NCBI GenBank assembly: GCA_919901855.1
Contig: CAKKQC010000040.1
Coordinates: forward strand, 1-64,000
Source of the DNA: a bacterium
Lineage (GTDB): Bacteria > Oederibacteriota > CAKKQC01
Direction of reading: 5' to 3'
Length of the DNA stretch: 64,000 bases
Shown: piece by piece, positions 23,989 to 56,483 of the stretch
Position numbering within the stretch: position 1 is the stretch's first letter
Layout of the letters: every line of letters starts with the position of its first letter
Notes under the pieces: generated by a model
The model's input: the letters and a program-made list of their open reading frames with translations, nothing else
What the model was told of the DNA's origin: nothing
The model's database searches: none
Position numbers and translations under genes: made by a program

Positions 23989-24737
23989 GCGCGCAGCCGG
24001 GCGCCGTGCTCGAAGCCGTGAAGCTCGTCAAGCGCTACGGCGGGCGCTCGGTCGTGCAGGGCATCTCGATGCGCGTCCGGCAGGGCGAAGTCGTGGGACT
24101 GCTCGGCCCCAACGGGGCGGGGAAGACGACGACGTTCTACATGATCGTGGGGCTCGTGCGGCCGGACGGCGGTCAGGTGCTCCTGTGCGAGGGCGCGAAA
24201 CGCGACGAGATCAGCCGCCTGCCCATGCACATCCGGGCGCGGCTCGGCATCGGCTACCTGCCGCAGGAGCCGTCGGTGTTCCGCAAGCTGACGGTGGAGG
24301 AGAACCTGCGGGCGCTGCTCGAGACCCTGCCGATTCCGGCGGAGGAACAGGAGGCCCGGTTGAAGGCGCTCGTCCGCGAGTTCTCGCTCAAGGCGCTGGC
24401 TCGCCAGCAGGCCTTCAAGCTGTCGGGCGGGGAGCGGCGCCGGGTCGAGATCGCGCGCGCCCTGACGACGCGCCCCAAGTTCCTGCTCCTGGACGAGCCC
24501 TTCGCGGGGATCGATCCGATCACGATCGAGGAGCTGCACCGCCACATCCGGGGACTCAAGCGCCGGGGGCTCGGCGTCCTCATCACGGACCACAATGTCC
24601 GGGAGACGCTGGCCATCACGGACCGCGCGTACCTCATCCACGACGGCAAGGTCCTGTTCGCGGGGACGGACCGGGAACTTGCCAGGGATTCCCGGGCCCG
24701 CAAGTACTACCTCGGGGAGCGGTTTACCCTGAAGTGA
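23985..24737 (+). CDS. lptB: LPS export ABC transporter ATP-binding protein LptB
   Basis: 250 aa, ATG start (ATGA overlap with lptA). Walker [10 protein letters not shown], LptB-type [20 protein letters not shown] (part) Q-loop region, signature [15 protein letters not shown], Walker [14 protein letters not shown] and switch His in [10 protein letters not shown]. Cytosolic ATPase of the LptB2FG pump; lptF and lptG are not in the window. Confidence 0.96.
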
Positions 24738-24932: not shown

Positions 24933-27900
24933 ACGATGGCCGGCTTGGCTCGCGGGCTGGCCGTGTTGGCGTCCGCTTTCTGGCTGGTTTCGGGGCCGGC
25001 GTCCGGCATGCAGACCGCCACCAACGGCTACCTGACCGTCAAGGTGAGCGATGACCCCGCCGCCGTCGGCGGCCCCGGGCTGTTCACGGTCGAGACGGGC
25101 CCGCTGCATCCGACGCCGGGGAAGAGCATCTTCTACAACTCCGTGGCGAACCAGATCGGAACCAGCTACATCACGGTCATGGACACCGACGCCAATACCC
25201 TCTGGGTTAACGCGGTGAGCAATACCACGATGGTCCCGTCCGAGGCCGGGTACGGGGTACAGCGGATGGGCGACTATCCCGTGACGCTCGCGGCCCTGGG
25301 GGCCTCCGGGTTCCGGGCGACCTACATCCTCCCGAAGTTCACCGTCATTCAGGATGTCGTGATCATGGGCACCGCCCTCATGAACACGTCCGTCATGCAC
25401 CAGGTGACCGTGACGAACACGTCGGGTTCCGACCTGCACTTCGGCGTCCGGTACCTCTGGGACTGGATGGTGAACGCGATCGACTCCTCGTACTTCCGTC
25501 CGCTCAACCCTCCGGGTCCGTATACGGACGTGTTCGAAGCCTTCGACGACCCGGTCTTCGACCGGTACGAGGCCTCCGATTCGGAAACTTTCCCGAGCTT
25601 CGAGATCTACGGAACGACGCACGGGGGGAGCCTACTTAGCGAGCCCCGCCAGCCCGACCAGATCCGGTACGCCTACTGGGGGGATGCGCGGAGGGCGCCA
25701 TGGGATTTCCCGGTGGCGGGTCAATCATCCGACAGCGCGATCGTGTACTACTGGGGGTTGACGGCCCCGCTGACGCTCGCGCCCGGATCGAGCACGACGT
25801 TCACGCAGTACGTCACCGCCAACCTCTACGCCCTGCGCCGGGCGATCCCCGAGATCAAGCTCGCGTTGTCCAACACGCTCTTCATCTGCGCCGGGGATGC
25901 CGTGACCTACTCGATCGAGTTCCGGAACAAGGGCGACGCCACGAGCGAGAACCTGACGATCACGGAGACGGTGCCCGCCGCGATGCAGTACGCGCCGGGC
26001 TCCCTGGAGTTCTGGGCCGGGACCAACGGCGGAGTCCCTCCCGCGGTTGCGGCGACGGCGTGGGCGTCCAACCTGAACGGGCCCTGGACGCCGGGCGAGC
26101 CCCCCGTCGTGTTTGCGCCAGACCACCTCCTGCGGTGGGTCGTCGACCGGCTGGGGCCGGACCAGTCCGGGTACATCCGGTTCGTCATGAACGCCGAGAA
26201 GGGCGTGTCTCCCGGCCTGACGCTCATCAGCTCGGCCTCGGCGACGAACGCCCTGGACAGCTCCGTCTTCCGGTCCGGGAACGTCAAGAACGAGACGCTG
26301 TCCGCCATCCTTTACAAGGTCGCCGACCCTTCCCTGCTCGACGCGGGCAATGGGCTCCGCTACACGCTGGAGGCCTGGTGCCCGTGCGCGACCACGATCT
26401 ACGATGTGACCGTCCACGACACCCTGCCCGCAGGGATGGACCTGGCCGAGCCGTACGGCCTCCATACCGATGGGGTCGTGACCGGGACGCGGTACGTCTC
26501 GTGGTCGATCGGCGACCTCGCGCCGGGAGCCTCCCGTTACGTCTACTTCGACGCCGTCGCGAACGGGGACGTGGCGACTCCCCGGAACTGGGGGGCGATG
26601 GACTACTCGGCCCTGCGCAACGGAACGCTGGAGGCGCAACCCCGCCTGCTCTGGTTTGCGGACGTGGACGTGAACCTGCCCAAGTTCTGGTTCCGCAAGA
26701 TGCTCTGGCCCCCGACCGGGCAGACGCCCGCCGCGCCCGACGGGCAGGTTCAGTTCGTGCTGGACATCGGGAACGACCGGAACGTCACGCTCACGAACGT
26801 CACGATGTGGGATTCCCTGCCGCCGGGGATGAGCTACCTTTCCGACACCGGCGGCGCGTCGGTCGCCGGGGACCTGGTGACGTGGAACAACGTGCCGGAC
26901 ATCCATCCGGGCGACCGCTGGAGCGTCTTCATGACTGTTCAGTTGAGCGGATCGTGCTACACGCTCGGGCCGAACACGGCACGGCTCGGGTTCACCCTCG
27001 ACCCCATCGCGGCCCCGTTCGTCCCGACGCCGCCGGCTTCGTCCGGTGACGTCCCGATCCCTCTCGCCCAGCCGATCGTGACGACGGTGCGAAGTCCGAA
27101 CCCGAGCGTCGTCCCGCCTGGCGAGCTGTTGACCTACACGATCTCGATGTGGAACGAGGGAAAGGCGAAGGCCTCGAGCGTCTCCGTCTGGGACAGCCTC
27201 CCTGCGAGGTCGACGTTCGTCGATGCCAGTCCCGGATACGTCTACACGCCCGGCACCCCGGGCACGGTCGTGTGGAACAACATACCGGATATCGTCACGG
27301 ATGCCCACGAGGATGTGTGGTACACGGTGCGCGTGGACACCTCCCCGGTCGGCATGCAGGCACTCACGTCGTGGGTGAGTTACTCGGGGGTCGCGGGCTG
27401 TACGACCTTCCAGACGCCGGTCTGGGACATGTACGTCTTCAAGGCCCAGCCCAAGTTCGAGATGTCGAAGTTCGTGGATCAGGGGATCGTACCCGTGGGC
27501 GGTATCGCGATCTGGTCGTTCAGCATCACGAACACGGGAAACGACAGCGCGCTCAACGTCGTGGTGTCGGACGCCCTGCCGACCGGACTTGCCTATACCG
27601 GTTGCAGCGGGCCTCCGGGCTGGACGTGTTCCCAGTCGGGGAACGTGGCGATCTGGACTACTCCCATGCTTCCCGCGGGATACACCGGCACGGTTTCCTT
27701 CGTGACCACGGTCGTCGACGACACCGTCCCGTCCTGCACGATGACGATCGACGGGAATAACTTCGGGAACAACATCGGCACCGTGACTTTCGAGAACCGC
27801 GTGGCCCAGCCACGGGGGCCCGCCGGCAGTACGGTCGCGTGCCTGCGGACCGGGGACGCCGCGCTCTATCTGGAAAAGGTGCCCAACTACAACCCGGTCA

Positions 27901-30746
27901 CGCAGGACACGACGCTCACGTGGTGGTTCACGATGTCGAATACCGGGGCCCTCGCGGCTTCGAACATCGTGCTCTGGGACACCCTGCCCGCGGGCGGGGA
28001 CTACATCGGGTGCGGAGGCGCCCCGTGCAGCCGGACGGGGAACCTCGTGGTCTGGCAGATCCCGGACCTCGCCGCGGGCGCCAGGGCGCAGGTCTACGTC
28101 ACCCTCACTGCGCGGGAAGGGATGGCCTGCACGAACTTCGGCGAGGCGTCGTACACGAATCCGATCGGGTTCGACCGCCCGCGCGTGACCGCCGTCGGCC
28201 CATGCGTTCCCGTGGTCCTGCCGGTCCTCGAGGTCTCGAAGTGGCCGACGAAGTCCGTGTATGCCAACGGCGAGCCGGTCACGTTCGCGCTGTCCTACAC
28301 GAACGTCGGGACGGGCATTGCGAACAAGGTGCGACTCACGGACTTCGTCGGCGCCGACATGCGGTTCGTGAACGCGACCCTGTCGTCGAGCGGCGACCCC
28401 TGGAGCACGGTGCTGACCGGTTCCACCGTGGACGTGGTCTGGGACCTCGGGAGTGTCTCCCCGGGCCAGTACGGGACCGCGTCGGTGACCCTGATGCCAA
28501 TGCTGCCCTCGGCGACGCAGTGCGAGTCGGGCAGTTTCCTGAACCACGCCCAGATCAAGTATGAGAAGGAGACCGGGGTCTGGCTTTCGACCGACACGGG
28601 GATGGTACCGGCGATGGTGAACGACACGGCGGTCGCCCTCGTGCTCTCGGCGAGTCCGCCTGTCGCGGACGCGGGCAGCCAGGTGACCTACACCCTCTCG
28701 ATCCAGAACACGTGCGAGGGCACTGTCACGAACCTGGCGGTCTGGGATTCCCTGCCCGCGGGGGTCGGGTTCGCGGGCGCGGATTCGGGCGGCACGCTGA
28801 TCGGCGGCGTGGTGTCCTGGTCCCTGCCGTCGATCCCGCCATACGGGGTGCTCCCGGTCACGTTCACGGTGACCGTGACGGGGGTGGGGCCGTGGATCGG
28901 CCCCGATACCGCCGAGACCGACTTCGCGAACGGGGCGGGTCTGCACCAGCCGCGCGCGCTCTCGAACACGGTCTGGATCGGCGTGCTGTCGCCCATGCTC
29001 TCCATGACGAAGACCGCGAGCCCGGTGCCCGTGCCGGCGGACGCCGCGCTGACCTACCGGCTGGCCGTGCGGAACATCGGGATCATGTCGGCCGTCTCGA
29101 TCCAGGTCTGGGACACGCTGCCGGCGGGTATGTCCTTCCTCGGTTGCCAGGGCGGGGCGTCGTGCTCGTTCGACGGGACCCGTGTGACCTGGCAGGTGCC
29201 GGACCTGCCTCCCGGGGCTTCTGTGGACCTGACCGTGTCGGTCACGGCGTCGTCCACGGCGGGGTGCCCGAAGACCAACGTCGCGCAGGGCGACTACGGA
29301 GTGCCCGGCGCGCCCTGGCGGATCGCTTTGACGTCCAACGCCGTCTGCGTGCCGGTCGTGCACTCGGAGCTGGCCCTCGGCATCACCGCGGACCGGCCGG
29401 TCCATGCGTCCGGAGATCTCATGGTCTACACGATCCTGTGCTCGAACCTGGGCACGGATACGGCCGTCTCCCTCGAGATCTCGGACGCCTGGCCGCCCGG
29501 CGCCGCCTTCTGGTCGGGCACGCCCGGCGGCTCCGCGGTCCCCGGCGGCCGCGAATGGGCCCTGCCCGATCTTCCGCCCGGCACGAGCGCGACGGTGTAC
29601 GTCTCGCTGCGGTCTCCGGCGGTGTCGTGCACGCCCGTGGTCCTTCCCCACGACGCGCTCGCGCGGTTCACGAACTCCTCCGGGATCGTCCAGCCCGACG
29701 TCGGGCCGGTGACGGCGACCGTGACGGTTACGGGGGTCATGCTCGTCCTGGGGCTTTCCCCGGCGGCGACCGTGGTGCAGCAGGGCGCGGCGGTCGCATA
29801 TGCGCTGACATGGTCGAATCCGTGCAGCGACACGGCGTGGAACGTGTCGCTGTGGGACACGGTGCCGGGCGATGCGGCCTACGCGGGCTCGTCGGGTGGC
29901 GGAACGTTCCTGGGAGGGCTCCTGGCGTGGTCGCCGGGGACAGTGCCTCCCGGCTCCGCCGGGGCCGTGACCTTCACGCTGTCCTGGGTGGGGGAGGGGC
30001 CGGACCTGGGGTTGCCGCCCGCGCAGGCCGGGTTCGCGTCCAGCAACGGGGCGGCCGCGCTGGCGCCGAGCAATCCCGCCACGGTCACTGTTTTACGACC
30101 GGTGGTGACCGTCGAGAAGCGCGGTCCGAGCGGCGTGGTCAAGGACGGTCGCGTGCGGTACGTGCTCACGGTTCGGAACGCGGGCACGGACACGGCGTTC
30201 GCGATCCGGGTCGTGGACACGATGCCGGCGCCGCTGAAGTACGCGGGGGCCTCGCCGCCGGCGGCCATCGCGGGCCCGGTGATGTCCTGGAGCCTCACGG
30301 GGCTCGAGATCGGGGGGACGGCGGTAATCACGGTGGACGCGCTGGGGCCTCCCGGCGAGGAGGACGCGGAGACCGTCAACTGCGCGATAGCGACCTGGCT
30401 AACTCCGCTCGGGATCGCCGGCGAATCCGCGCCGTCCTGCGTCACCGTGGTGCTGAGCCCGGATCTCGTCGTCAGGATCTTCCCGAACCCGTTCGAACCC
30501 GCGAAGGCCGTGCGCGGCACGATGAAGTTCACGGGATTGCCCGAGGCGTCGTACGTGTCCCTCTACACGCTCACTGGGGTGCGGATGCGCCTGCTGACGG
30601 ACGTGACCCGCCATGCGCTGGAATGGGACGGGCGGAACGAGGACGGCTCGCCGGTGGCGGCGGGCGTCTACCTCTACGTGGTCGAGATGCCCGATGGGAA
30701 AGGCGGGAAGACCAGGCTCAAGGGCAAGTTCGGGCTGATTCGGTGA
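24933..30746 (+). CDS. giant secreted DUF11-repeat protein with C-terminal FlgD-like domain (module 1)
   Basis: 1937 aa from ATG 24933, preceded by GGGAAGG; the frame also has ATGs at 24873 and 24765. Signal peptide MAGLARGLAVLASAFWLVS. Residues about 25-300 form a unique beta-rich N-terminal domain (YLWDWMVNAIDSS and similar). Twelve DUF11-type beta-sandwich repeats follow, each built around a VWDTLPAGM-like turn and a W.LPDLPPG turn; examples are IHDTLPAGMDL-type at the start and VVDTMPAPLKYA last. The last ~90 residues are a FlgD-like Ig domain (RIFPNPFEP, LEWDGRNEDGSPVAAGVYLY). The layout is that of a cell-surface stalk or adhesin. Overlaps the next barrel gene by GTGA. No ligand can be named. 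Confidence 0.85.
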   Translation, partial: TMAGLARGLAVLASAFWLVSGPASGMQTATNGYLTVKVSDDPAAVGGPGLFTVETGPLHPTPGKSIFYNSVANQIGTSYITVMDTDANTLWVNAVSNTTMVPSEAGYGVQRMGDYPVTLAALGASGFRATYILPKFTVIQDVVIMGTALMNTSVMHQVTVTNTSGSDLHFGVRYLWDWMVNAIDSSYFRPLNPPGPYTDVFEAFDDPVFDRYEASDSETFPSFEIYGTTHGGSLLSEPRQPDQIRYAYWGDARRAPWDFPVAGQSSDSAIVYYWGLTAPLTLAPGSSTTFTQYVTANLYALRRAIPEIKLALSNTLFICAGDAVTYSIEFRNKGDATSENLTITETVPAAMQYAPGSLEFWAGTNGGVPPAVAATAWASNLNGPWTPGEPPVVFAPDHLLRWVVDRLGPDQSGYIRFVMNAEKGVSPGLTLISSASATNALDSSVFRSGNVKNETLSAILYKVADPSLLDAGNGLRYTLEAWCPCATTIYDVTVHDTLPAGMDLAEPYGLHTDGVVTGTRYVSWSIGDLAPGASRYVYFDAVANGDVATPRNWGAMDYSALRNGTLEAQPRLLWFADVDVNLPKFWFRKMLWPPTGQTPAAPDGQVQFVLDIGNDRNVTLTNVTMWDSLPPGMSYLSDTGGASVAGDLVTWNNVPDIHPGDRWSVFMTVQLSGSCYTLGPNTARLGFTLDPIAAPFVPTPPASSGDVPIPLAQPIVTTVRSPNPSVVPPGELLTYTISMWNEGKAKASSVSVWDSLPARSTFVDASPGYVYTPGTPGTVVWNNIPDIVTDAHEDVWYTVRVDTSPVGMQALTSWVSYSGVAGCTTFQTPVWDMYVFKAQPKFEMSKFVDQGIVPVGGIAIWSFSITNTGNDSALNVVVSDALPTGLAYTGCSGPPGWTCSQSGNVAIWTTPMLPAGYTGTVSFVTTVVDDTVPSCTMTIDGNNFGNNIGTVTFENRVAQPRGPAGSTVACLRTGDAALYLEKVPNYNPVTQDTTLTWWFTMSNTGALAASNIVLWDTLPAGGDYIGCGGAPCSRTGNLVVWQIPDLAAGARAQVYVTLTAREGMACTNFGEASYTNPIGFDRPRVTAVGPCVPVVLPVLEVSKWPTKSVYANGEPVTFALSYTNVGTGIANKVRLTDFVGADMRFVNATLSSSGDPWSTVLTGSTVDVVWDLGSVSPGQYGTASVTLMPMLPSATQCESGSFLNHAQIKYEKETGVWLSTDTGMVPAMVNDTAVALVLSASPPVADAGSQVTYTLSIQNTCEGTVTNLAVWDSLPAGVGFAGADSGGTLIGGVVSWSLPSIPPYGVLPVTFTVTVTGVGPWIGPDTAETDFANGAGLHQPRALSNTVWIGVLSPMLSMTKTASPVPVPADAALTYRLAVRNIGIMSAVSIQVWDTLPAGMSFLGCQGGASCSFDGTRVTWQVPDLPPGASVDLTVSVTASSTAGCPKTNVAQGDYGVPGAPWRIALTSNAVCVPVVHSELALGITADRPVHASGDLMVYTILCSNLGTDTAVSLEISDAWPPGAAFWSGTPGGSAVPGGREWALPDLPPGTSATVYVSLRSPAVSCTPVVLPHDALARFTNSSGIVQPDVGPVTATVTVTGVMLVLGLSPAATVVQQGAAVAYALTWSNPCSDTAWNVSLWDTVPGDAAYAGSSGGGTFLGGLLAWSPGTVPPGSAGAVTFTLSWVGEGPDLGLPPAQAGFASSNGAAALAPSNPATVTVLRPVVTVEKRGPSGVVKDGRVRYVLTVRNAGTDTAFAIRVVDTMPAPLKYAGASPPAAIAGPVMSWSLTGLEIGGTAVITVDALGPPGEEDAETVNCAIATWLTPLGIAGESAPSCVTVVLSPDLVVRIFPNPFEPAKAVRGTMKFTGLPEASYVSLYTLTGVRMRLLTDVTRHALEWDGRNEDGSPVAAGVYLYVVEMPDGKGGKTRLKGKFGLIR

Positions 30747-32038
30747 GAGTCTCCCCGGCCTCCGTCTGGCTGGCCCTCTGTCTGGTCCCGGGCGGCCCGG
30801 CCGGGGCGAATGGTCCCGGGAGTTCCTTCGGCGAGGGGCTCCGGCTGACCAACACGGCGTGGGCGATCGGGCTTTCCGAGGCGATGGTCGCGTCGGGCGA
30901 GGGCGTGAGCGCGGTGTCGCTCAATCCCGCGGGCGTCCTCGACGCCGGGCTCACGACGCTCCACGTCACGCACGCCTTCTACGTCGAAAGCATCCAGGAG
31001 GACTACCTCGCCTGCACCACGCGCCTGCCGTTCGGCTCCGCGATCGGCGTCTCGCTCCACGGCCTCTACGACTCGGCCACGGGACGCACGATCGAGGACG
31101 CGATGGGGCGGTACGCGGGCGAGTCGGGGCGCTATCCGCTCGGTTTCGCGGTCGGGGGCGCGGCCTACGCGGTCGACCTGTCGAGGCTGGCCCCGGGCCT
31201 CGGCTTCATGCGTCCGACCGGCGGCATCGGACTGCGGGGCGTGTGGCAGCAGATCGACCGGTCGTCGCGCATCGGCGTGACGTTCGACGTGGGATTCAAG
31301 ATCCGGCCGTTCCCGGGCGTTACGGTGGCGGGGGTGCTTCAGAACGCGGGGGTCGTGAGCGGGCCGGCCGGACTGCCGCTCCAGTGGGTGACCGGCATCG
31401 CGTGGCAGAACGAGCGGATCGGGAACCGGAACGACCGCGTGCTGCTCGAGATCGACTCGCCCGTGGCCGTGGACCGCGGGCTGTCCCTGCGCGCCGGGCT
31501 GGAGTACCGGATCCAGTTCAGCCGGGTGGGGTTCGCGATTCGCGGCGGATGGAAGCAGGAGAACGAGGTGCCCGGCGCTCCCGGCGTCTCCACCGGGGTC
31601 GGGTTCCGGTGGCTCATCGCCCGCATGCCCTGGGGCGTGGACTACGCCTTCGTGCCCTGGGGGATCTTCGGGGCGGCGCACGCGATCTCGATGACCGTCG
31701 GGATCATCCCGAAGCCGCGGACCGTCGAGATCGACACCGGCCCGGTCGACCCCGGGCGGGAGCCTCCCGAGGTCTTCTACCCGCTCAAGGGCGAGCGCGC
31801 CCGCTACGCGCTGAAGATGGAGGAGCGGACGGAGCTGTCGGCCATCCTGCTCGACGCCGGGGGGCTCCCCCTGGCGAACCTGTTCGAGAAGCGGGTCGTG
31901 GAGCCCGGCGACTACGAGATCGTCTGGAACGGCTATCTCCCGAACGGGGAGCTGGCGACCCTCGAGGTCGTTTACCGTATCTCCATCCAGTACGGCGCCC
32001 GGACCTGGTACCGGGACGTGGTCCCGAAGAGGGAGTAG
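30743..32038 (+). CDS. UPF0164/PorV-like outer-membrane barrel with FlgD-like C-terminus (module 1)
   Basis: 431 aa, GTG start (GTGA overlap). Signal peptide ending near PAGANG. The UPF0164/PorV hallmark SFGEGLRLTNTAWAIG ... GVSAVSLNPAGVLDAG is at the N-terminus, followed by about 14 amphipathic strands to residue ~330. Residues ~345-431 are a FlgD-like Ig domain (EVFYPLKGERARYALKM ... IVWNGYLPNGE). PorV in Bacteroidetes shuttles T9SS cargo at the outer membrane; whether this paralogue handles the DUF11 protein next to it is inference from the coupling. About half its residues match the barrel at 36428. Confidence 0.8.
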   Translation: MRVSPASVWLALCLVPGGPAGANGPGSSFGEGLRLTNTAWAIGLSEAMVASGEGVSAVSLNPAGVLDAGLTTLHVTHAFYVESIQEDYLACTTRLPFGSAIGVSLHGLYDSATGRTIEDAMGRYAGESGRYPLGFAVGGAAYAVDLSRLAPGLGFMRPTGGIGLRGVWQQIDRSSRIGVTFDVGFKIRPFPGVTVAGVLQNAGVVSGPAGLPLQWVTGIAWQNERIGNRNDRVLLEIDSPVAVDRGLSLRAGLEYRIQFSRVGFAIRGGWKQENEVPGAPGVSTGVGFRWLIARMPWGVDYAFVPWGIFGAAHAISMTVGIIPKPRTVEIDTGPVDPGREPPEVFYPLKGERARYALKMEERTELSAILLDAGGLPLANLFEKRVVEPGDYEIVWNGYLPNGELATLEVVYRISIQYGARTWYRDVVPKRE

Positions 32039-32042
32039 GATA

Positions 32043-35000
32043 ATGCGAATGCGACCGGTGCTTGCCCTCGTACTGGCCATGGCTACGGCCTCCCCGGCCG
32101 TCGCGTTCGTGGACGACTTCGAGTCCGAGACGCTGGGCGACCTCAATGGCCAGAACAACTGGTTCTCCTCGATGAGCCACACCGCGGGGACGTTCGACGT
32201 GGAGAATACAACCGTCCTGAACGGGGCCCAGAGCCTGTCGCTCTCGGGAGTCCCCGGCGGGATCACGGAGTACCGGCATCTGGTGCCGGCGTCGAATTAC
32301 TGCACCGTGACGTGGCAGTTGCAGGTAACGGACGCGTACTCGGGGGTATACGCGTGTGACGGGGACGACTCGACGGAAAACTGGGGCGTGTGGGTCGATA
32401 TGGCCGGGAACGTCTACGTCGACGACTCCGTGGGGGTCTGGTCCTCCGGCGGCACCGTCACCGCAGGTGCCGTGCACTCGTACCGGATGGTCCAGTCCCC
32501 CGCCGGGACGATCGACCTGTACATAGACGGGAGCGGGACGCCGTCGTTCTCCGGCAGCGTCATGACCATCGGGACCGGGGCCCAGGACCGGCTGCTGCTC
32601 TCGTTCTGGTCAACCGGCCCGGACGGGAGCGCAAACCAGGCCATCTGGGACGACGTCAACTACTCGGTTCCGCCGGCGATCACGGTGGTCAAGACGATGA
32701 CGGGAGGCGAGGGGGTCGGAGCGCCGGTGCAATACCAGATCACGGTGACCAACGTGGGCGGGAACGTGATCACGGACCTGGTCGTCGTGGACACGATCCC
32801 ATCCGTGCTCCAGAACGTGACGACGACCGAACCGGGCGGATGGGGAGTGCCCGCCGTGACCTCGGTGAGCGGCGGCACCCGGTACGAGTGGTCCGCGACG
32901 GGACTGACGTTCAACCCCACGGACACCTTGACCTTCACGATCGACGGGGCGATCGGGTTCGTCTGTGCCCAGACGGCGATTTCCAACACGGCATATGCCG
33001 CCGCCACCTCCGCGGCGGGGTGGGCGGACCTGTTCTCGGGCGTCTCGGGCGCCGTGATCGAGCCCCCCGCGGCGACCGTGTCGGTCGTGCAGACGATGAC
33101 GCCGGGGGCCCTGGTCGTGGGCGGGCCCGTGCAGTACCAGATCGTGGTCACGAACACGGGGTCCGCGACCCTCGCCAGCGTTACGGTGACCGACACGGTC
33201 GCGCCCGTGGTAACCGCCGTGACGCCGACGACGCCGGCCGGGTTCGCGGCGCCCGTCGTGATGCAGGGGGCGTCGGGCACGATCTACAGTTGGGAGAGCA
33301 CGGGGCCGGTCTACTGGGCCGGGCCCCTGACCTTCCAGCTCGACGGGACCGTCGGGGACGTGTGTGTGAGTACGGCGGTCTCGAACACGGGCTACGCCTA
33401 TGTGGTGGACGACTGCGGGACCGGCGAGCAATGGTCCAACGTCGCCGGGGCAGTCGTCGCGCCGCCCGCGGGGGCGGTCACGATCGTGCAGTCGCCGGTG
33501 GGGAGCCCGGTCGTGGGCGGCCCCGTGACGTACCAGTTCCAGGTGACGAACACGGGCACGATCCCGCTCAGCCGCGTGATCGTGGTGGACACGGTCGCGC
33601 CGGAGGTGACGGGCGTGGTGCAGTCGACGCCGCCGGGGTTCGCGGTCCTGCCCGTGGTTCAGGGCGCTTCGGGGACGATCTACAGTTGGGAGAGCACCGG
33701 ACCGTTCGCCCCGTCCGACAGCCAGACGTTCACGCTCGCGGGGACCGTCGGGGACGTGTGCGCCAGCACGGCGGTCTCGAACACGGGCTACGCCTACTTC
33801 GAAGCGCCGTGCGCGGCCGGCGAGACCGCGTCCGGCGTCGAGGGTTTCGCGATCGTAGGGCCATTGTTCCAGATCGGGGTCACCAACACGCAGACCGCCT
33901 GGACCGGCGTGGGAGCGCCGGTCTCGTACCAGATCGTGATCACGAACACGGGCGCGGTCAACGTCGACGATCTCATCATCGTGGACACGGTGTCGCCGGA
34001 GGTCGTGGGCGTGACGACGACCCGGCCGCTGGGGTGGGCGGCGCCGGTCGTGACCTCGGTGGCAGGCGGCACCCGGTACGAGTGGGCGGGTACCGGGCTC
34101 GCCCTCGCCCCGGCGGGGACATTGACCTTCACGATCGACGGCGCGGCGGGGTTGGTCTGCGCCTCGACGGGTCTGTCGAACACGGCCTACGCGACGTCAT
34201 GGACGTCCTGCGCCCGGTCGTCGGCGATGCCGGCCGCGGCAGGCTCCATCGTCGAGCCGCCGGTCACGGCGCTCACGATCACGAATGTGGAGAGTCCGGC
34301 ATCGCCGGCCGTGGGGAACCCGGTCACGTATCAGATCACGGTCACGAACGTGGGCACGGCCACGCTGGACTCCGTTGTCGTCGTGGACACCGTGGATGTG
34401 GCGATCGCGGGGCCGGTGCAGACGGTGACGCCGGCCGGCTTCGTGACGCAGCCGGTGGTGGGCCGCGTCCTCTCCTGGATCAGCACGGGGCCGTTGCCGT
34501 TCGGGGTGCCGGCGACATTCCAGATCGACGGCACGGTCGCCCTCGTGTGCGCCACCAGGGACGTCGGGAACACGGCCTTCGTCGCCGGCACCTCGGGTTG
34601 CGCGACGGATCCGCAGAGTGCGAGTGCGGAGGTGTTCACGGACCCGGCCGGAATATGCTCGGCGGCGACGGTCGAGGCCTCGATCGCGGTGTCGCCGGCC
34701 TCGCCGATGCTCTGCGAGAACCTGATCGTGGACCTCACGATCACGAACACGGGGGCCGCCGACATCTCGGGGCTCGGCCTGGAGGGAGGGATCCTGCGGC
34801 CGGAAGGACCGGGCCTCTGGCTTTCGGGGCCCACCCCGCCGTTCTCCGGCACGCTGCTGATCGGCAGCTCGTTCACCTGTTCCTTCGTCTACGGCTCGAC
34901 CGCGTCCGGCGCGGTCGTGCTGTCCGTCACCGTGACCGGCAATGACGCCGGCTCGGGGGTGCCCATCACCGGGTATCTCGCGGCGACACCATCCATCACG

Positions 35001-36431
35001 ATCCCGGGGCAGTCGCCGTTCCCCGCGAGCGTGGCGGTTTCGAGTTTCACGGCTGCCAAGTCCCAGTACGTGACGGGCCAGACCATCGACTACACGATCT
35101 CGCTGTGGAACAGCGGCTGGGATCCGGCCGCCGGCGTGGAGGTGTCGGATACCCTGCCGCCCGGGCTGGCCTTCGTCGGCTGCGGCGGGGCCCCGTGCGT
35201 CGAGACGGGTGGCCTCGTCGTCTGGTCGCTCACGGGGACCCTGCCCATGAGCGGCACGTACGACCTCACGCTCTCGGTCCAGGCGCCCGCCGCCAACTGC
35301 GCGGTGCCAGTCACGAGCGACCCCTGCTCGCTGGGCGGCTGCGTGTTCGTGGACTGGACCAACGCGTGCGGGAACCTCGTGTGGCCGTGGTACTCGTTTG
35401 GACAGGCGGTTCCCCCCGCGGTCGTGAACGCGTCGATCGTGCCGACGGTGGTGCCGCAGCCGCCCACGGCGGCCGAGGGTGCGGTCGTGCGTTACAACGT
35501 CACGCTCGCCAACACGTGCTCCGACACGGCGATCAACGTCGTCGTCTGGGACACGATTCCGCCGGGGGTGGCGCTGGCCGCGCTGGGTCCCGGGGCGACC
35601 GAAACGGGCGGGCTCGTGCGGTGGACGGTGGCGAGCGTGTCGCCGGGCGCTTCCGTGACGGTCTTCTTCTCGGTGTCCGTGACGTCGCCGGGGCCGCTCA
35701 TCGATCCCACCATCGCGTCCGTGACGAACGCCAACTCCACAGGGCAGAATCAGCCGCTCGCGGTGAGCGCCGGCGCCGGAGTGACCGTGATGGGACCGCT
35801 GCTTTCCGTGGTCAAGACGGGGCCGGACGCGGGGAGCACGGACGACTTCCTGCCTTTCCTGATATCCGTCTACAACGGAGGGACCGATACGGCCCTCAAC
35901 CTGGTCGTGACCGACAACCTGCCATCTGAACTGCTGTTCGTCTCGGGCTCGCCGGGCCCCGTGGTGGCGGGGAAGGCCGTGAGCTGGTCCCTGCCGGACC
36001 TGCCGCCGGGCGGGCGGACGAGCGTCACCGTGACCACGCGCGGGTCGGGGGTGGAGAACGAACTGGTCCTGGTGAACCAGGCTGTCGCCACCTGCGTGAA
36101 CAGCGGCCACGTGGCGATGGCGCCGGTGACGGGCACCAAGACCGTGTCCCTGACGCCGCGACTCAAGGTCCGCGTCTTCCCGACGCCGTTCTCGCCCGCG
36201 ACGGCCGTGGGCGGGACGCTCAAGTTCTCGGGGCTTCCCGACAGCGCCACCGTGCGGATCTACACGGTGTCCGGGAGCCTGGTCAGGGAGCTGACTCACG
36301 TCGTGCATCACCGGATCGTCTGGGACGGGCGGACGGACGGCGGGGCCGCGGCGGCGCCCGGGCTCTACCTTTACGTCATCGAGCTGCCGGGAGGCAAGAC
36401 GGCCAAGGGCAACTTCGGGGTGGTCCGATGA
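32043..36431 (+). CDS. giant secreted DUF11-type repeat protein with FlgD-like domain (module 2)
   Basis: 1462 aa, ATG 4 bp after the previous stop with GAGGGAG upstream. Signal peptide ends near SPAVAF. Residues ~20-210 look like a concanavalin/LamG-type sandwich (DDFESETLGDLNGQNNW, ENWGVWVDMAGNVYVDD). About nine Ig-like repeats follow: five close ones with VVDTVAPEV-like turns (internal identity high, e.g. GTIYSWESTGP occurs twice), one divergent, then three classical DUF11 repeats (VSDTLPPGLAFV, VWDTIPPGVALA, VTDNLPSELLFV). C-terminal FlgD-like domain RVFPTPFSPATAVGGT. Same layout as module 1 with a different head domain. Confidence 0.85.
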   Translation: MRMRPVLALVLAMATASPAVAFVDDFESETLGDLNGQNNWFSSMSHTAGTFDVENTTVLNGAQSLSLSGVPGGITEYRHLVPASNYCTVTWQLQVTDAYSGVYACDGDDSTENWGVWVDMAGNVYVDDSVGVWSSGGTVTAGAVHSYRMVQSPAGTIDLYIDGSGTPSFSGSVMTIGTGAQDRLLLSFWSTGPDGSANQAIWDDVNYSVPPAITVVKTMTGGEGVGAPVQYQITVTNVGGNVITDLVVVDTIPSVLQNVTTTEPGGWGVPAVTSVSGGTRYEWSATGLTFNPTDTLTFTIDGAIGFVCAQTAISNTAYAAATSAAGWADLFSGVSGAVIEPPAATVSVVQTMTPGALVVGGPVQYQIVVTNTGSATLASVTVTDTVAPVVTAVTPTTPAGFAAPVVMQGASGTIYSWESTGPVYWAGPLTFQLDGTVGDVCVSTAVSNTGYAYVVDDCGTGEQWSNVAGAVVAPPAGAVTIVQSPVGSPVVGGPVTYQFQVTNTGTIPLSRVIVVDTVAPEVTGVVQSTPPGFAVLPVVQGASGTIYSWESTGPFAPSDSQTFTLAGTVGDVCASTAVSNTGYAYFEAPCAAGETASGVEGFAIVGPLFQIGVTNTQTAWTGVGAPVSYQIVITNTGAVNVDDLIIVDTVSPEVVGVTTTRPLGWAAPVVTSVAGGTRYEWAGTGLALAPAGTLTFTIDGAAGLVCASTGLSNTAYATSWTSCARSSAMPAAAGSIVEPPVTALTITNVESPASPAVGNPVTYQITVTNVGTATLDSVVVVDTVDVAIAGPVQTVTPAGFVTQPVVGRVLSWISTGPLPFGVPATFQIDGTVALVCATRDVGNTAFVAGTSGCATDPQSASAEVFTDPAGICSAATVEASIAVSPASPMLCENLIVDLTITNTGAADISGLGLEGGILRPEGPGLWLSGPTPPFSGTLLIGSSFTCSFVYGSTASGAVVLSVTVTGNDAGSGVPITGYLAATPSITIPGQSPFPASVAVSSFTAAKSQYVTGQTIDYTISLWNSGWDPAAGVEVSDTLPPGLAFVGCGGAPCVETGGLVVWSLTGTLPMSGTYDLTLSVQAPAANCAVPVTSDPCSLGGCVFVDWTNACGNLVWPWYSFGQAVPPAVVNASIVPTVVPQPPTAAEGAVVRYNVTLANTCSDTAINVVVWDTIPPGVALAALGPGATETGGLVRWTVASVSPGASVTVFFSVSVTSPGPLIDPTIASVTNANSTGQNQPLAVSAGAGVTVMGPLLSVVKTGPDAGSTDDFLPFLISVYNGGTDTALNLVVTDNLPSELLFVSGSPGPVVAGKAVSWSLPDLPPGGRTSVTVTTRGSGVENELVLVNQAVATCVNSGHVAMAPVTGTKTVSLTPRLKVRVFPTPFSPATAVGGTLKFSGLPDSATVRIYTVSGSLVRELTHVVHHRIVWDGRTDGGAAAAPGLYLYVIELPGGKTAKGNFGVVR

Positions 36432-37711
36432 GACGGGCCGCTATCGCGCTCCTGGCTGCCCTCGCCGCGTCGAGCGCTTCCGCCGACGCGGGGACCAGCT
36501 TCGGCGAGGCCCTGCGCCTGTCGCAGAGCGCCTGGGCGCAGGGGATGGGGGACGCCCAAGCTGCGTCCGCGGAGGGCGTCTCCGCGATCGGGGTCAACCC
36601 CGCGGGCGTGCTCACCAGCGGGTTCACGACGTTTCATCTCACGCATTCGTTCATGGTGACCGGGATCAACGAGGACTACTTCGCCTATGTGCAGCCCCTC
36701 CCGGGGCAGACCACGATGGGCCTCTCGCTCTACGTCATGCGGGCGCCCGGGGGCGTCAGGGAATTCGAGGACGAGAACGGCAACTGGGCGGGGGAGGCGG
36801 GACCGTACCCGGTCATGTTCATGTCGGGCGGCGCGGCGTGGGCGATGGACCTGCGCCGGTTCCTGCCGGGGCTCGACCTGCTGCGGCCGTCGGGAGGCGC
36901 CGGGCTCCGGATCATGAGCCAGCAGGTGGACCGGGAGAGCTGGCTGGGCGTGTCGGGAGACCTCGGGGTGCGCCTCCAGCCCGGGGCGGGATTCGGCGGC
37001 GGGTTGGTCCTCCAGCACGTCGGGCTGGATGAGAGCGGGTTTGGCCCGCCGCGGCAGTTCGTCGGCGCCGTATCGTGGCGGACGGACCGGCTGTTCACCG
37101 CGGGCGACGGGTTCCTGCTCGAACTCGACGCCCCCCTCGCGCGGGACCGGGCGCTGCTGATCCGGGGCGGCGGGGAGTACCGGCTGATCGCCGGGCCGTT
37201 GGCCCTCGCATTCCGCGGCGGATACCGGGAGGAGCTCGCGGATACGGGGGCGCCCGGATTCTCCGCGGGGCTGGGGTTCCGGTGGCTCAGCCGCCGCGCC
37301 CCCTGGGGCCTGGATTACGCGATCGTTCCAATGGGGACGCTCGGCACCCGGCACGCGGTATCCCTGACGATCGGGATGGCGTCCGGGGCCCGGCAGGTCG
37401 AGAACCTCAACGTCACGATCGAGGAGCAGCAGGCTCCCGTCCGCGTCTTCTACCCGACCAAGGGGGAGCGCGTGTACCTGCCGATCCGCATCCGGGAACC
37501 CGCGGAAGTCAGCGCGAAACTCCTCGACGAGAGCGGGCTGTCGGTCGCCATCCTGATGGAGCCCACGGTGCTCGCGGCGGGGCGGCACGAGATCGGCTGG
37601 GATGGCCAGATCGCCCCCGGGGTGTGGGCCCAGTTCGACCGGACCTATCACATCTTCGTGCAGGCGGGGAACCAGAGCTTCTACCTCGACTGCGTGCCGA
37701 AGACGGAGTAG
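36428..37711 (+). CDS. UPF0164/PorV-like outer-membrane barrel with FlgD-like C-terminus (module 2)
   Basis: 427 aa, ATG start (ATGA overlap with the DUF11 gene). Signal peptide MRRAAIALLAALAASSASA. SFGEALRLSQSAWAQGM and GVSAIGVNPAGVLTSG align directly with the module-1 barrel, as do INEDYFAY, RLIAGPLALAFRGGYR and the C-terminal FlgD-like stretch VFYPTKGERVYLPIRI. Clearly a paralogue from duplication of the two-gene unit. Outer-membrane location inferred from the family. Confidence 0.8.
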   Translation: MRRAAIALLAALAASSASADAGTSFGEALRLSQSAWAQGMGDAQAASAEGVSAIGVNPAGVLTSGFTTFHLTHSFMVTGINEDYFAYVQPLPGQTTMGLSLYVMRAPGGVREFEDENGNWAGEAGPYPVMFMSGGAAWAMDLRRFLPGLDLLRPSGGAGLRIMSQQVDRESWLGVSGDLGVRLQPGAGFGGGLVLQHVGLDESGFGPPRQFVGAVSWRTDRLFTAGDGFLLELDAPLARDRALLIRGGGEYRLIAGPLALAFRGGYREELADTGAPGFSAGLGFRWLSRRAPWGLDYAIVPMGTLGTRHAVSLTIGMASGARQVENLNVTIEEQQAPVRVFYPTKGERVYLPIRIREPAEVSAKLLDESGLSVAILMEPTVLAAGRHEIGWDGQIAPGVWAQFDRTYHIFVQAGNQSFYLDCVPKTE

Positions 37712-42488: not shown

Positions 42489-42512
42489 GGGGTTGAAGGA
42501 AACGCTGACGTG

Positions 42513-43541
42513 ATGAGAGCTTTCCGCACCCTGTGCCTCACCCTCGTCAGTATTGCCTTGTTTTCAGGGCCTTCTGCCTACGCGCTGGGGCCCGGTTCCA
42601 CCTCCGCCGCCTACCTCAAACTCCCCTCCGGCGCGCGCGCCATCGGCATGGGCGAGTGTTACGTGGCCGCAGGCGACGACGTGCAGGCCATCGGCTGGAA
42701 CCCCGCCGGCATCGCCAGGGTCTCGGGACGCGAGTTCACGTTCATGCACGCGGAGTGGTTCCAGGGCATTCGCTACGAGTCCCTGGCCTATGCCCAACCA
42801 CTCATGGGTTTCATCACCGTCGGCGGCGGCGTGGACTTCCTGAACAGCGGGACGATCGACAAGACCACGTTCCGGGATCTCAATACGGCGGCTGGAGGCC
42901 CGGAGCACTCGGCGTTCGACATGGCGGGTACGTTCACCGTGAGCAACGTGGTCGTGACCGGGGCGGGAGCCGTCGATGCGAGCGGGCTGCGCTGGCTGCC
43001 GATTCCGGGCATTCAGGCGGGGATGAACATTCGCGCTCTGCTCAGCAAGATCGACAAGACCTCGTCGGCCAGCGCCATCATCGACCTGGGGGCGCTGTGG
43101 ACGCCCGAGCGCCTTCCGAACTGGACCTTCGGGATCGTGGGCCAGAACATGGGGCCCGCCATCGCGAGCGCGAGCCAGAAGGCCGCCAACTCCACTGACA
43201 AGGTGGTGCAGAAGAAGCTTCCGCCGATCACGTTCCGCACGGGGGCGGCCTGGAAGAGCACGGCGAAGAACATCGTCGTGGACCTGGACATCCTTGTGCC
43301 CGTCGACAACTATCCGAAGCTCTCGATCGGCGGCGAGTACTGGTACAAGAAGCTCATCTGCTTCCGGGGCGGCTATAAGTTCCAGGGCAAGCTCGACCTC
43401 AACGAGTACAACACCGGGGGGCTCGAGGGCCTGTCCGTGGGGGCCGGCTTCCGGTACAACATCGTGCGGCTCGACTACGCCTTCGCGACCCTCGGCTTCC
43501 TGGGAGCGACGCATCGCCTGTCGCTCACCGTTAATTTCTGA
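42513..43541 (+). CDS. stand-alone PorV/PorQ family outer-membrane protein
   Basis: 342 aa from ATG 42513 (a GTG at 42510 is in frame). Signal peptide ends after SAYA. GPGSTSAAYLKLPSGARAIGMGECYVAAGDDVQAIGWNPAGIA (landmarks only in part) is the PorV/PorQ N-terminal signature, followed by alternating strands and a C-terminal LDYAFATLGFLGATHRLSLTVNF with terminal Phe, the outer-membrane insertion signal. No FlgD-like tail, unlike the barrels at 30743 and 36428. Expressed from its own strong promoter, so possibly an abundant porin-like protein or a general surface-secretion factor. Confidence 0.85.
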   Translation: MRAFRTLCLTLVSIALFSGPSAYALGPGSTSAAYLKLPSGARAIGMGECYVAAGDDVQAIGWNPAGIARVSGREFTFMHAEWFQGIRYESLAYAQPLMGFITVGGGVDFLNSGTIDKTTFRDLNTAAGGPEHSAFDMAGTFTVSNVVVTGAGAVDASGLRWLPIPGIQAGMNIRALLSKIDKTSSASAIIDLGALWTPERLPNWTFGIVGQNMGPAIASASQKAANSTDKVVQKKLPPITFRTGAAWKSTAKNIVVDLDILVPVDNYPKLSIGGEYWYKKLICFRGGYKFQGKLDLNEYNTGGLEGLSVGAGFRYNIVRLDYAFATLGFLGATHRLSLTVNF

Positions 43542-53625: not shown

Positions 53626-53714
53626 TTCAAGGTCGAAGTGCAACACTATGGGCATGATCCGCGCATCCTAGCGCGGAGGCCCTCATGCCCATAGTGTTGC
53701 ACTTCGTTCTTGAA
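53626..53714. repeat. 89-bp near-perfect palindrome
   Basis: Arms 53635-53657 and 53683-53705 are perfectly inverted over 23 bp (GAAGTGCAACACTATGGGCA...). They extend outward by TTCAAG/CTTGAA (53626-53631, 53709-53714) past a 3-bp mismatch, and inward by TCCGCGC/GCGCGGA (53658-53664, 53671-53677). The result is a cruciform-capable structure. An apparent ORF starting at 53685 lies inside it and is an artefact. It could be a small mobile element or a bidirectional terminator. Confidence 0.75.
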
Positions 53715-53730
53715 CTCGCGGATAGACCGC

Positions 53731-53818
53731 AGGGACATCCTTCGCCTTTTGCTCATACCCCCTCGCCGCCGAGCTCACTTAGGGAATCAGGTTTCGGGGT
53801 CATCCTTCGGATCATCGG
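53731..53818. repeat. partial copies of the dispersed inverted-repeat element
   Basis: AGGGACATCCTTCG (53731-53744) and GGGGTCATCCTTCGGATCATC... (53796-53818) match the end sequence of the element at 5951, in the same orientation. Both are truncated or degenerate. Confidence 0.5.
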
Positions 53819-53840
53819 CCAATACCCACCACATCAAGCA

Positions 53841-56483
53841 GTGGCTGGTCGGCGATCCGCAGGTTGGTGCCTGCTCGCCTTGTTGCTTGGGCTGTCTCCC
53901 GCAAGGGTGACCGCTGGGACGGGAATCATCACGACGGTCGCTGGAACGGGGAGTGGCACGTACAACGGCGATGGGATTGCTGCCACGACGGCGGGCGTGG
54001 AGCCGGCTGCGGTATTCGTGGACGCCGCAGGCCGCCTCTACATCTCCGAGTTCTACGGCCAACGAATTCGGAGAGTTGATCCCACAACGGGACTGATCAG
54101 CACGGTGGCCGGTACGGGGACGAAAGGCTACAACGGAGACGGAATAGCCGCAACTTCTGCGGACCTCGATAACCCCACCGCAATCTTCGTGGACGGCTCC
54201 GGGAACATCTACTTCGCTGAGGCCTCGAGCAACCGAGTCCGGCGAGTTGATGCCGGGACGGGCTTCATCAGCACGGTGGCCGGCACGGGGACCGCTGGCT
54301 ACAACGGAGACGCCATTTCAGCTACGGTGGCCAACCTGAGCTACCCGTCAGGGCTCTTTCTTGATCAATCAGGAAACATGTTCATCGCAGACAATGGCGC
54401 AGGTCGAATTCGCAGAGTCGACGCAAATGCGGGACTGATCAGCACTGTGGCTGGGACTGGGGTGGGGGGGTACAACGGGGACGGGATTGCCGCGACGACT
54501 GCACAGTTGAGTAATGTGGACCAGATCTGTTTGGACGCCTCAGGCAATCTCTACATCGCGGACTCGAGTAACTATAGGGTCAGGAAGGTGGATGCCGCCT
54601 CGGGCTTGATCACTACGGTGGCGGGAAGTGGGACGCGCGGCTACAACGGAGACGGAATTCCTGCGACCAGCGCGGACCTGGAATGGACCACCGGAGCATG
54701 GGTCGACCGCTGTGGGAACCTGTACATAGCGGACAACAACAACAGCTGGCGCGTCCGTAAGGTCGATGCGACAACGGGGCTTATCAGTACGGTGGCGGGC
54801 ACCGGCGTCAACGGATTCAATGGGGACGGCATTTCCGCGACCGCGGCGAACCTCAGTGAGCTCGGGAATGTTGTCACCGATTCGGCCGGCGTCCTCTACA
54901 TCGCCGACCATTTCGACTACCGCGTCCGGCGGGTGGATCTCACCTGCGCTCCCTTGACACCGGCGCTTGCCTGGGAGCGGACGTACAACAGCGCCGGCTC
55001 CAATGACGACGTCGCGAATGCCGTGGCGGTCGACTCGAGCGGCAACGCGGTCGTGGTTGGCTGGGAGGACCGGACCGACCTGGGCCAGGGCAGGAACTGG
55101 GCCATTCGCAGGTACAACACACAAGGGGACCTCCTGTGGTTCAGGGACTACGACGACCCGCTGCACGGCGATGAATTCGCCCGCGGTGTGGCGGTGGACT
55201 CCTCGGGCCATGTCCTCGCCGCCGGGATCCAGGACCCGTATCTCCAGACGAACACGCTCTCGGATTGGCTGGTTCGCCGGTACGATCCGGATGGAGTCCT
55301 GCTCTGGTCCCGGACCGAGAACGGCCCCGTGAACGGCCCGCCGTGGGGCAACGACAACGGCTTCGCCGTGGCGTCCGATCTCAGCGGGAGCGTGTACGTG
55401 GTCGGTGACTTTGCCTCGCCGACAGGATCGGGTGCGGACCTCTGCATCAGGAAGTACGCGGAGGACGGGACTCCCATCTGGACACGAACGGGCACTAGGA
55501 CGGGCGCAAGGGACAATGGGATTGCGCTCGGTGCCGCGGTCGCCCCTACGGGCGAGATCGTCGTCGTGGGGGAACAGACATGTTGCTGGCCCTCCATGCA
55601 GGGGGATTGGGTGGCCGAGAAGCTCAGTTCAGGGGGGGCCGTGCTCTGGTCCACGGTGTATACGGGGTCGCCAAGCGGCTGGGATTCCGGCACGGGCGTG
55701 GTCGTGGATGGAGATGGCAACCTGATCGTGTGCGGCCGCGAGGTGGCGCCAGGTGAGGGGATGAACGGTGTCGTCCTCAAGTACAGTCCTGCGGGGGACC
55801 TCCTCTGGAGGCGATCCCGCAATTCGCCCGGCAACTACGATGACCAGTACCGCGGCGTGGCTGTCGATGGGGAGGGCGACGTGATCGCGGTCGGGTTCGA
55901 GGGGGCGGCCGGCGGGCAAACCCACTGGATGATATCGGTCTTCAATCCAAGAGGGAACGCGCTGTGGACCTGGACCGGCAGTGGTGAGGGCCCCACGGAC
56001 CTTACGAATCCCAACGCCGGCCGGTATATCGATGTGGCTGTAGATGGAAGCGGGTTTGTGGTTGCCGGGACCGAGGCGGTGGCCGGGCAGGGCCTGAACT
56101 GGTCCATCCGGAAGTTCACATTTGGCGCATCGTCCGGGCCGGGCGCGGGACCGGGGTCGGGACCGGGCGGACCGGCACCGACGGTGGCAGTGAGGCATCT
56201 CGTGATCGCGCCGAACCGGATCGACCTGGGCGGCGGACAGACCCAGGTCAAGTTCCACCTCAAGGGCGATCCGGGCGGGGTGGCCGAGGTGCGGATTTAC
56301 GACGCATCCGGGGCGTTCATAGGGAAGATGACGGTCACGCTCAATGCGGGCGGAGTCGGAGAGGCCACGTGCACGGCGAACGGGATCGATGGGAGGAAGC
56401 TGGCGCCGGGAGCGTACTGGGTGCTGGCAACCGGCGGAGGCGTGAACGACAAGAAGCTGTTCTTCGTGGTGAAGAAGAAGTGA
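53841..56483 (+). CDS. secreted beta-propeller surface protein with FlgD-like C-terminus (module 3)
   Basis: 880 aa from GTG 53841, which gives a clean signal peptide (AGRRSAGWCLLALLLGLSPARV); the frame extends into the repeats at 53685 and is rejected there. Six NHL repeats of about 56 aa (each TGLISTVAGTG.GYNGDGI ... GNLYIADSSNYRVRKVD) make one propeller to residue ~370. Seven or so SBBP-like repeats (VAVDSSGNAVVVG, RRYDPDGVLLWSR) make a second to ~770. A GPGAGPGSGPGGP hinge precedes a FlgD-like Ig domain (ITIAPNRIDLGG-like, DGRKLAPGAYWVLAT). The NHL part looks less GC-rich than its neighbours, which may reflect transfer or repeat expansion. Coupled to a PorV-like gene. Confidence 0.85.
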   Translation: MAGRRSAGWCLLALLLGLSPARVTAGTGIITTVAGTGSGTYNGDGIAATTAGVEPAAVFVDAAGRLYISEFYGQRIRRVDPTTGLISTVAGTGTKGYNGDGIAATSADLDNPTAIFVDGSGNIYFAEASSNRVRRVDAGTGFISTVAGTGTAGYNGDAISATVANLSYPSGLFLDQSGNMFIADNGAGRIRRVDANAGLISTVAGTGVGGYNGDGIAATTAQLSNVDQICLDASGNLYIADSSNYRVRKVDAASGLITTVAGSGTRGYNGDGIPATSADLEWTTGAWVDRCGNLYIADNNNSWRVRKVDATTGLISTVAGTGVNGFNGDGISATAANLSELGNVVTDSAGVLYIADHFDYRVRRVDLTCAPLTPALAWERTYNSAGSNDDVANAVAVDSSGNAVVVGWEDRTDLGQGRNWAIRRYNTQGDLLWFRDYDDPLHGDEFARGVAVDSSGHVLAAGIQDPYLQTNTLSDWLVRRYDPDGVLLWSRTENGPVNGPPWGNDNGFAVASDLSGSVYVVGDFASPTGSGADLCIRKYAEDGTPIWTRTGTRTGARDNGIALGAAVAPTGEIVVVGEQTCCWPSMQGDWVAEKLSSGGAVLWSTVYTGSPSGWDSGTGVVVDGDGNLIVCGREVAPGEGMNGVVLKYSPAGDLLWRRSRNSPGNYDDQYRGVAVDGEGDVIAVGFEGAAGGQTHWMISVFNPRGNALWTWTGSGEGPTDLTNPNAGRYIDVAVDGSGFVVAGTEAVAGQGLNWSIRKFTFGASSGPGAGPGSGPGGPAPTVAVRHLVIAPNRIDLGGGQTQVKFHLKGDPGGVAEVRIYDASGAFIGKMTVTLNAGGVGEATCTANGIDGRKLAPGAYWVLATGGGVNDKKLFFVVKKK

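Follow-up and report, generated by a model that had tools for sequence, protein, structure and literature searches.

Cargo-barrel gene pairs in an Oederibacteriota genome suggest a one-barrel-per-protein form of type IX secretion

Introduction

Why should a bacterium encode a giant secreted protein and an outer-membrane barrel back to back, twice in succession, with each stop codon overlapping the next start? This arrangement was noted at positions 24,933 to 37,711 of the window, which is the whole stretch of 64,000 nucleotides analyzed here from contig CAKKQC010000040.1 of the Oederibacteriota assembly GCA_919901855.1. The original prediction proposed that each barrel is a dedicated exporter, anchor, or assembly factor for its neighbor. 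The type IX secretion system (T9SS) and its C-terminal domains (CTDs) have several times been described as limited to Bacteroidota or its superphylum, and the pairing of one barrel with one cargo has been described for type B cargo only (PMC12618676, PMC10202324, PMC11205867). Here, we find that the pairing is real, conserved, and more general than the original prediction saw. The evidence suggests a one-barrel-per-protein form of a pathway in which, elsewhere, such proteins depend on a single common barrel.

Results

Two tandem units and a third pair in the window

The two consecutive units are present with the open reading frames and 4-bp overlaps that had been described; the cargos, barrels, and their domains in the window all lie on the + strand. 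Cargo 1 (24936..30746) is a secreted 1936-aa DUF11-repeat protein (DUF11, E = 2.7e-105) with a type-A-like CTD. The reading frame had been taken as 1937 aa from 24933; the frame holds and the start does not, as 24933 is an ACG codon and an in-frame ATG giving a good signal peptide first occurs at 24936. Barrel 1 (30743..32038), a PorV-family outer-membrane barrel of 431 aa, follows through a GTGA overlap. Cargo 2 (32043..36431) is a secreted 1462-aa DUF11-repeat protein, joined by an ATGA overlap to barrel 2 (36428..37711), a PorV-family barrel of 427 aa. The barrels are paralogues, 45% identical over 406 aa without gaps, and the cargo heads differ, both as had been described; only the C-terminal ~470 aa of the two cargos is well shared (38%). 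Each cargo has many DUF11 repeats and then an end domain resembling FlgD_ig, CHU_C, and Por_Secre_tail.

The window also holds a third cargo-barrel pair, absent from the original prediction. Cargo 3 (53685..56483) is a 932-aa NHL/SBBP-propeller protein with a divergent CTD (TEN_NHL, 4e-27; FlgD_ig, 7.5e-5), a CTD subtype also present in two other pairs, and barrel 3 (56480..57907) is a PorV-like protein of 475 aa with a CsgG/LpoB-like tail, joined to cargo 3 by a GTGA overlap. A further PorV/PorQ-family barrel of 343 aa (42510..43541; NF033709, 147.6 bits against a cut-off of 90) is unpaired, with a TPR protein gene rather than a CTD gene directly upstream, and is a candidate shared shuttle.

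Upstream of cargo 1, the open reading frame at 23598-24737 has, by inspection, the look of an LptB-type ABC ATPase, and in the sister genus its counterpart (60% over 380 aa) likewise adjoins the orthologue of cargo 1. Elsewhere on the contig, outside the window, lies a 10,753-codon open frame that ends near 188711 in a T9SS-type CTD; a second giant CTD frame of 6,372 codons ends near 122221. Neither has an adjoining barrel among the matches listed.

Barrels and C-terminal domains resemble parts of a type IX system

When a barrel profile was compared with the PDB, PorV of the SprA translocon was the top match (3.8e-26), far ahead of other structures. Barrels 1 and 2 match the PorV_fam model NF033709 at 37.8 and 53.6 bits, both under the cut-off of 90, and do not match PorP/SprF. 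An AlphaFold2 model of barrel 2, of moderate confidence (pLDDT 60.7, six sequences), shows a barrel of 14 main strands and, after it, a distinct C-terminal domain of six strands. Profile homology to PorV is thus accompanied by a 14-strand barrel, with the strands counted in that moderate-confidence model. The barrels had been predicted to be UPF0164/PorV-like, and it is the PorV half of this description that stands: UPF0164 (Pfam PF03687) has 14 matches in the genome, 12 of them above cut-off, and barrels 1 and 2 fall short of the family and are better fitted by the PorV profile. Across the genome, the barrel paralogues are strongly diverged, many pairs being 20-30% identical.

Our CTD profile (A3) matches the solved CTDs of PorZ, FlgD, PorU, and gingipain, together with translocon-bound CTDs. 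The CTD of cargo 1 (30465..30743) matches FlgD_ig/CHU_C, the PorZ C-terminus, and Por_Secre_tail. That of cargo 2 (36162..36428) is placed by profile matches, and its low-confidence model retrieves PorZ and translocon-bound CTD structures first, though at a pLDDT of 52.6 these fold matches count as weak support. The type A model TIGR04183 has 38 matches in the genome at E ≤ 1, 15 of them above cut-off, and also gives weak matches across 13 of 14 control genomes, reaching above cut-off in 1; the CTDs of cargos 1 and 2 lie under its cut-off. Against the type B model (PF13585, CHU_C), the window cargos give E = 0.011-0.048, likewise under cut-off, and the window pairs do not qualify as PorP/SprF type B pairs. 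The genome as a whole therefore does encode cargo with a CTD of the types by which a T9SS is recognized, namely type A (TIGR04183) or type B.

DUF11 had been proposed as a conserved element of the module, which does not hold. Cargo heads are DUF11, Kelch, FN3, CARDB, TIG, NHL, or PKD, and, judged by sequence, the conserved unit is the CTD plus the barrel, with variable heads.

Cargo-barrel pairs recur throughout the genome

A gene for a CTD protein directly followed by a PorV-like barrel gene was found in at least 31 cases in this genome, in a census combining searches with about 40 regions of 20 kb picked around barrel or CTD matches. Separate searches for barrels and for T9SS sorting domains repeatedly gave CTD ends and barrel starts that coincide. 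The examined regions held 33 candidate pairs, 31 from this genome. For 28 of these, the barrel begins within about 420 bp of the CTD gene stop, a 4-bp overlapping start being possible in 18 and a 1-bp overlap in 2. Three further barrels sit behind genes with the divergent CTD subtype; one (C18) was first matched at 566 bp to another open reading frame, and the other two were first counted as lone. Lone barrels include the one at 42510, one beside an OmpA-tailed barrel, and a few beside unrelated genes. Because about 16 CTD proteins in the examined regions have no adjoining barrel, some barrel sharing must exist. With a wider profile, the counts are 58 barrel and 83 CTD matches, which may include fragments. 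Our HMMs were refined in repeated rounds on this genome itself, so that drift is possible; the independent curated TIGR04183 and UPF0164 models and the wider profiles give the same picture of adjacency.

Two variations on the arrangement were seen. In region L079:10585-12045 (G000:C32), a paired OmpA-fused barrel is followed by a second PorV-like barrel in one operon. Close to contig starts, regions L089:2102-2974 and L110:1114-1986 hold near-identical pairs (91% for the barrels and 80% for the CTDs), reflecting either a recent duplication of a whole pair or an assembly effect.

The pairing is conserved in the phylum

The original prediction had staked dedicated partnership on conservation in relatives, and the pairing recurs there as well as in the at least 31 cases at home. 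The phylum sample comprised 45 genomes. Among the best-scoring matches listed for 13 of these, at least 44 of 150 barrels have a CTD no more than 450 bp upstream, where 0.18 would be expected by chance, with zero neighbors in reverse order and zero on opposite strands; in 4 of the genomes, these matches include no pair. Barrel and CTD numbers per genome are correlated across the 13 genomes (rho 0.73, p = 0.005), and CTD matches reach up to 112 per genome in the phylum. We also took 40 loci of relatives chosen solely for encoding a barrel, 39 of them with usable upstream sequence. A recognized CTD gene was immediately upstream in 24 of the 39 testable barrels, and for 2 more the upstream gene had a CTD-like end that the model missed. 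In seven loci of relatives (L123, L124, L136, L138, L140, L153, and L154), a second same-strand barrel lies near a CTD-barrel pair.

The sister genus has an orthologue of cargo 1 (38% over 1491 aa) with its own barrel directly behind it, and the barrels nearer to barrel 1 and those nearer to barrel 2 lie there on separate contigs. From these sequences, the tandem duplication is probably older than both genera, and with orthologues of both units in the sister genus, a single duplication peculiar to this locus no longer fits. A search of named genomes for close relatives gave one weak locus, UBP14_UBA6098, at 35%.

SprA is present and PorU is not detectable

This genome encodes the SprA/Sov translocon by which a T9SS is recognized, with SprA scoring 204.8 bits against a cut-off of 200. 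SprA is detectable in 40 of the 45 phylum genomes at E ≤ 1e-6, above cut-off in only 3. In this genome, sprA, a CTD gene, and a PorV-like barrel gene stand head to tail on one strand (region L077:5188-14100, G000:C23), and among 14 relatives with at least 5 kb of sequence beyond sprA, 11 have a CTD gene directly behind it. The suggestion that the display system might be independent of the T9SS is not supported in view of SprA and these loci. Profile searches for Peptidase_C25, the PorU-type sortase, gave none in this genome and were positive in only 4 of 45 phylum genomes, and the full PorU model matches only CTDs; at such evolutionary distance, absence in a profile search is not proof. PorU is not essential to the definition of a T9SS. 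A search for T9SS core genes elsewhere in the genome had been proposed, and it succeeded for SprA; GldM gave no confident match in the 45 genomes, for which the model may be too distant.

Barrel tails vary and often carry OmpA domains

Barrels 1 and 2 had been described as ending in a FlgD-like domain. A separate tail domain is indeed there, at 31700..32035 in barrel 1 by tail profile and at 37373..37708 in barrel 2 by tail profile and AlphaFold2 model, yet it is barely visible to Pfam (E = 0.14 for barrel 2 and no match for barrel 1). The FlgD/Ig tail profile is common to four barrels of this genome and one of the sister genus. Tails more widely are FlgD-like, FN3, TPR, CsgG/LpoB, or OmpA. 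One barrel of this genome has an OmpA tail (1.2e-47), and among relatives, OmpA was found in 10 of 10 long barrel tails tested, often in the order FlgD_ig-OmpA-TPR. The position of the barrel 1 tail is occupied in relatives by FlgD_ig and then OmpA; barrels 1 and 2 have the Ig (FlgD-like) part only, without the OmpA domain.

OmpA domains bind peptidoglycan, and the barrel tail, that of barrel 1 probably included, should therefore be periplasmic. PorV binds CTDs through extracellular loops (PMC10994853). The FlgD-like modules of cargo and barrel are thus probably on opposite faces of the membrane. Tail-to-tail docking, in which the matching FlgD-like ends had been cast as docking units, was rejected on the variety of the tails and on this probable topology. 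Homology between barrel tail and cargo CTD was also considered and rejected, being marginal at 10.7 bits at best.

Recognition is likely private to barrel subclades

Distances between barrels are correlated with distances between their CTDs (r = 0.51, p = 2e-4), and nearest neighbors agree between barrel and CTD in 12 of 28 pairs. Among barrels below 35% identity, the correlation drops to r = 0.08. With the divergent CTD subtype added, the overall value is r = 0.67, and that for distant barrels r = 0.11 (permutation p = 0.04). This mirror-tree test was set aside as evidence that recognition is cognate: it is positive overall, and joint duplication explains most of it, leaving a weak sequence signal of pair-level co-evolution beyond joint duplication. 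The divergent CTD subtype is, however, restricted to one barrel subclade in 3 of 3 cases. As the deep signal is weak and yet CTD subtype tracks one subclade, private recognition is likely at the level of the subclade and no more than possible pair by pair.

Discussion

We consider it probable that the window pairs are cargo-plus-anchor pairs of a divergent T9SS, with export through SprA, an uncut CTD, and a barrel for each cargo. We infer the following course for transport, retention of the CTD, stoichiometry, and anchoring. Sec would export each large protein, carrying its type-A-like CTD, and the cargo would then cross the outer membrane through SprA. On leaving SprA, the cargo would be bound through its CTD to the PorV-like barrel made from the same message, often by way of the stop-start overlap. 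As searches detect no PorU-type sortase, the CTD probably escapes cleavage, which would leave the cargo on its own barrel at the cell surface, one barrel to each cargo. The C-terminal tail of the barrel would be periplasmic, and in many relatives its OmpA domain should grip peptidoglycan, giving a wall-tied anchor.

Three other readings were weighed against this one. The barrels could be interchangeable PorV-type shuttles, with the operon copy keeping shuttle number level with cargo and any CTD fitting any barrel. The weakness of deep barrel-CTD co-variation speaks for this, as do the unpaired CTD proteins, which must borrow a barrel, and published type A CTDs share one PorV and bind by shape more than by sequence (PMC12618676). 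We nonetheless regard free interchange as unlikely, since a distinct CTD subtype keeps to a single subclade and the barrels are so diverged and have different periplasmic tails. Alternatively, the barrels might be small-molecule channels of the ordinary FadL type whose genes just happen to stand in operons with those for surface proteins. Foldseek with the moderate-confidence barrel model does rank generic barrels best (OmpG, porins, CymD, and FadL types), and UPF0164 and PorV belong to a wider FadL-like group; against this, the barrel sequence profile prefers PorV over CymD by 21 orders of magnitude, and a transport role leaves the strict order of CTD and then barrel unexplained. This makes the channel reading highly improbable.

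Scarcely credible, finally, is a two-partner system that is independent of the T9SS and has the barrel itself exporting its neighbor. The tight one-to-one gene pairing would suit it, as would the lack of a confident match to GldM and PorU. It is opposed by SprA in most of the phylum, with CTD genes directly behind it and, in this genome, a CTD-barrel pair, and a folded 1900-aa Ig array would not fit a 14-strand pore. PorV-type barrels are 14-stranded, hold substrate on their extracellular loops, and do not conduct (PMC10994853). For the barrel, the most likely role is that of a dedicated outer-membrane partner acting as shuttle or anchor, and that of exporter would fall to SprA.

The cargo-plus-anchor reading has precedents in Porphyromonas gingivalis, in which porU mutants accumulate PorV-bound substrates (PMC5562754) and the CTDs of PorU and PorZ, naturally left uncleaved, remain attached to PorV and PorQ (PMC10202324). 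Published PorV retention without PorU, cognate type B barrels, and the PorP-PorE wall link together imply that a sortase-free T9SS should need one barrel per cargo. Such a system would have its barrel made in step with the cargo and preferably tied to the wall, which matches the anatomy described here. More tentatively, and as something possible rather than probable, the phylum may represent a T9SS branch without the shuttle-and-sortase cycle, having for each cargo a private, single-use barrel that is fused to a tail binding peptidoglycan or otherwise periplasmic and serves as a fixed anchor at the surface, and perhaps an energy source other than GldL/GldM. A phylum nearly free of detectable PorU, yet with SprA, CTDs, and tens of PorV-like barrels, many of them cargo-paired and many OmpA-fused, offers a natural experiment on the purpose of the sortase cycle, and its dozens of CTD-barrel pairs per genome are a source for learning recognition rules.

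The nearest parallel in gene order is SprB-SprF of Flavobacterium johnsoniae and, more generally, type B CTD proteins with PorP/SprF barrels, where a cargo gene is likewise followed by its own shuttle barrel. In that species, 9 of 12 type B cargos are barrel-linked, cognate dependence has been shown for several, each cargo is produced along with its cognate barrel, and where it ends up is determined by that barrel (PMC12618676). The present pairs differ in having type-A-like CTDs and PorV-family barrels, with tens of pairs per genome. In CTD type and barrel family, they are instead like PorV and type A cargo of the Bacteroidota T9SS, in which a single PorV serves all published cargos and PorU cleaves and attaches the majority of them (PMC12618676, PMC5562754); the genome studied here encodes dozens of PorV-like barrels, and PorU is undetected in it. 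Uncleaved type A CTDs anchored on their own barrel are known from PorU-PorV and PorZ-PorQ of P. gingivalis (PMC5562754, PMC10202324), and the solved structures closest to the CTDs described here include those of the PorZ and PorU CTDs. Those are two parts of the machine, whereas the present pairs look like general cargo display. For the tie to the wall, the counterpart is PG1035-PorP-PorE, with a cargo CTD on a barrel and PG1035 presumed to be linked to the cell wall by way of PorP and PorE, the latter contributing an OmpA-like domain that ties to peptidoglycan (PMC9143113, PMC7192894). PorE is a separate lipoprotein and its cargo is type B, whereas the phylum studied here has the OmpA domain and the PorV-like barrel in one fused polypeptide.
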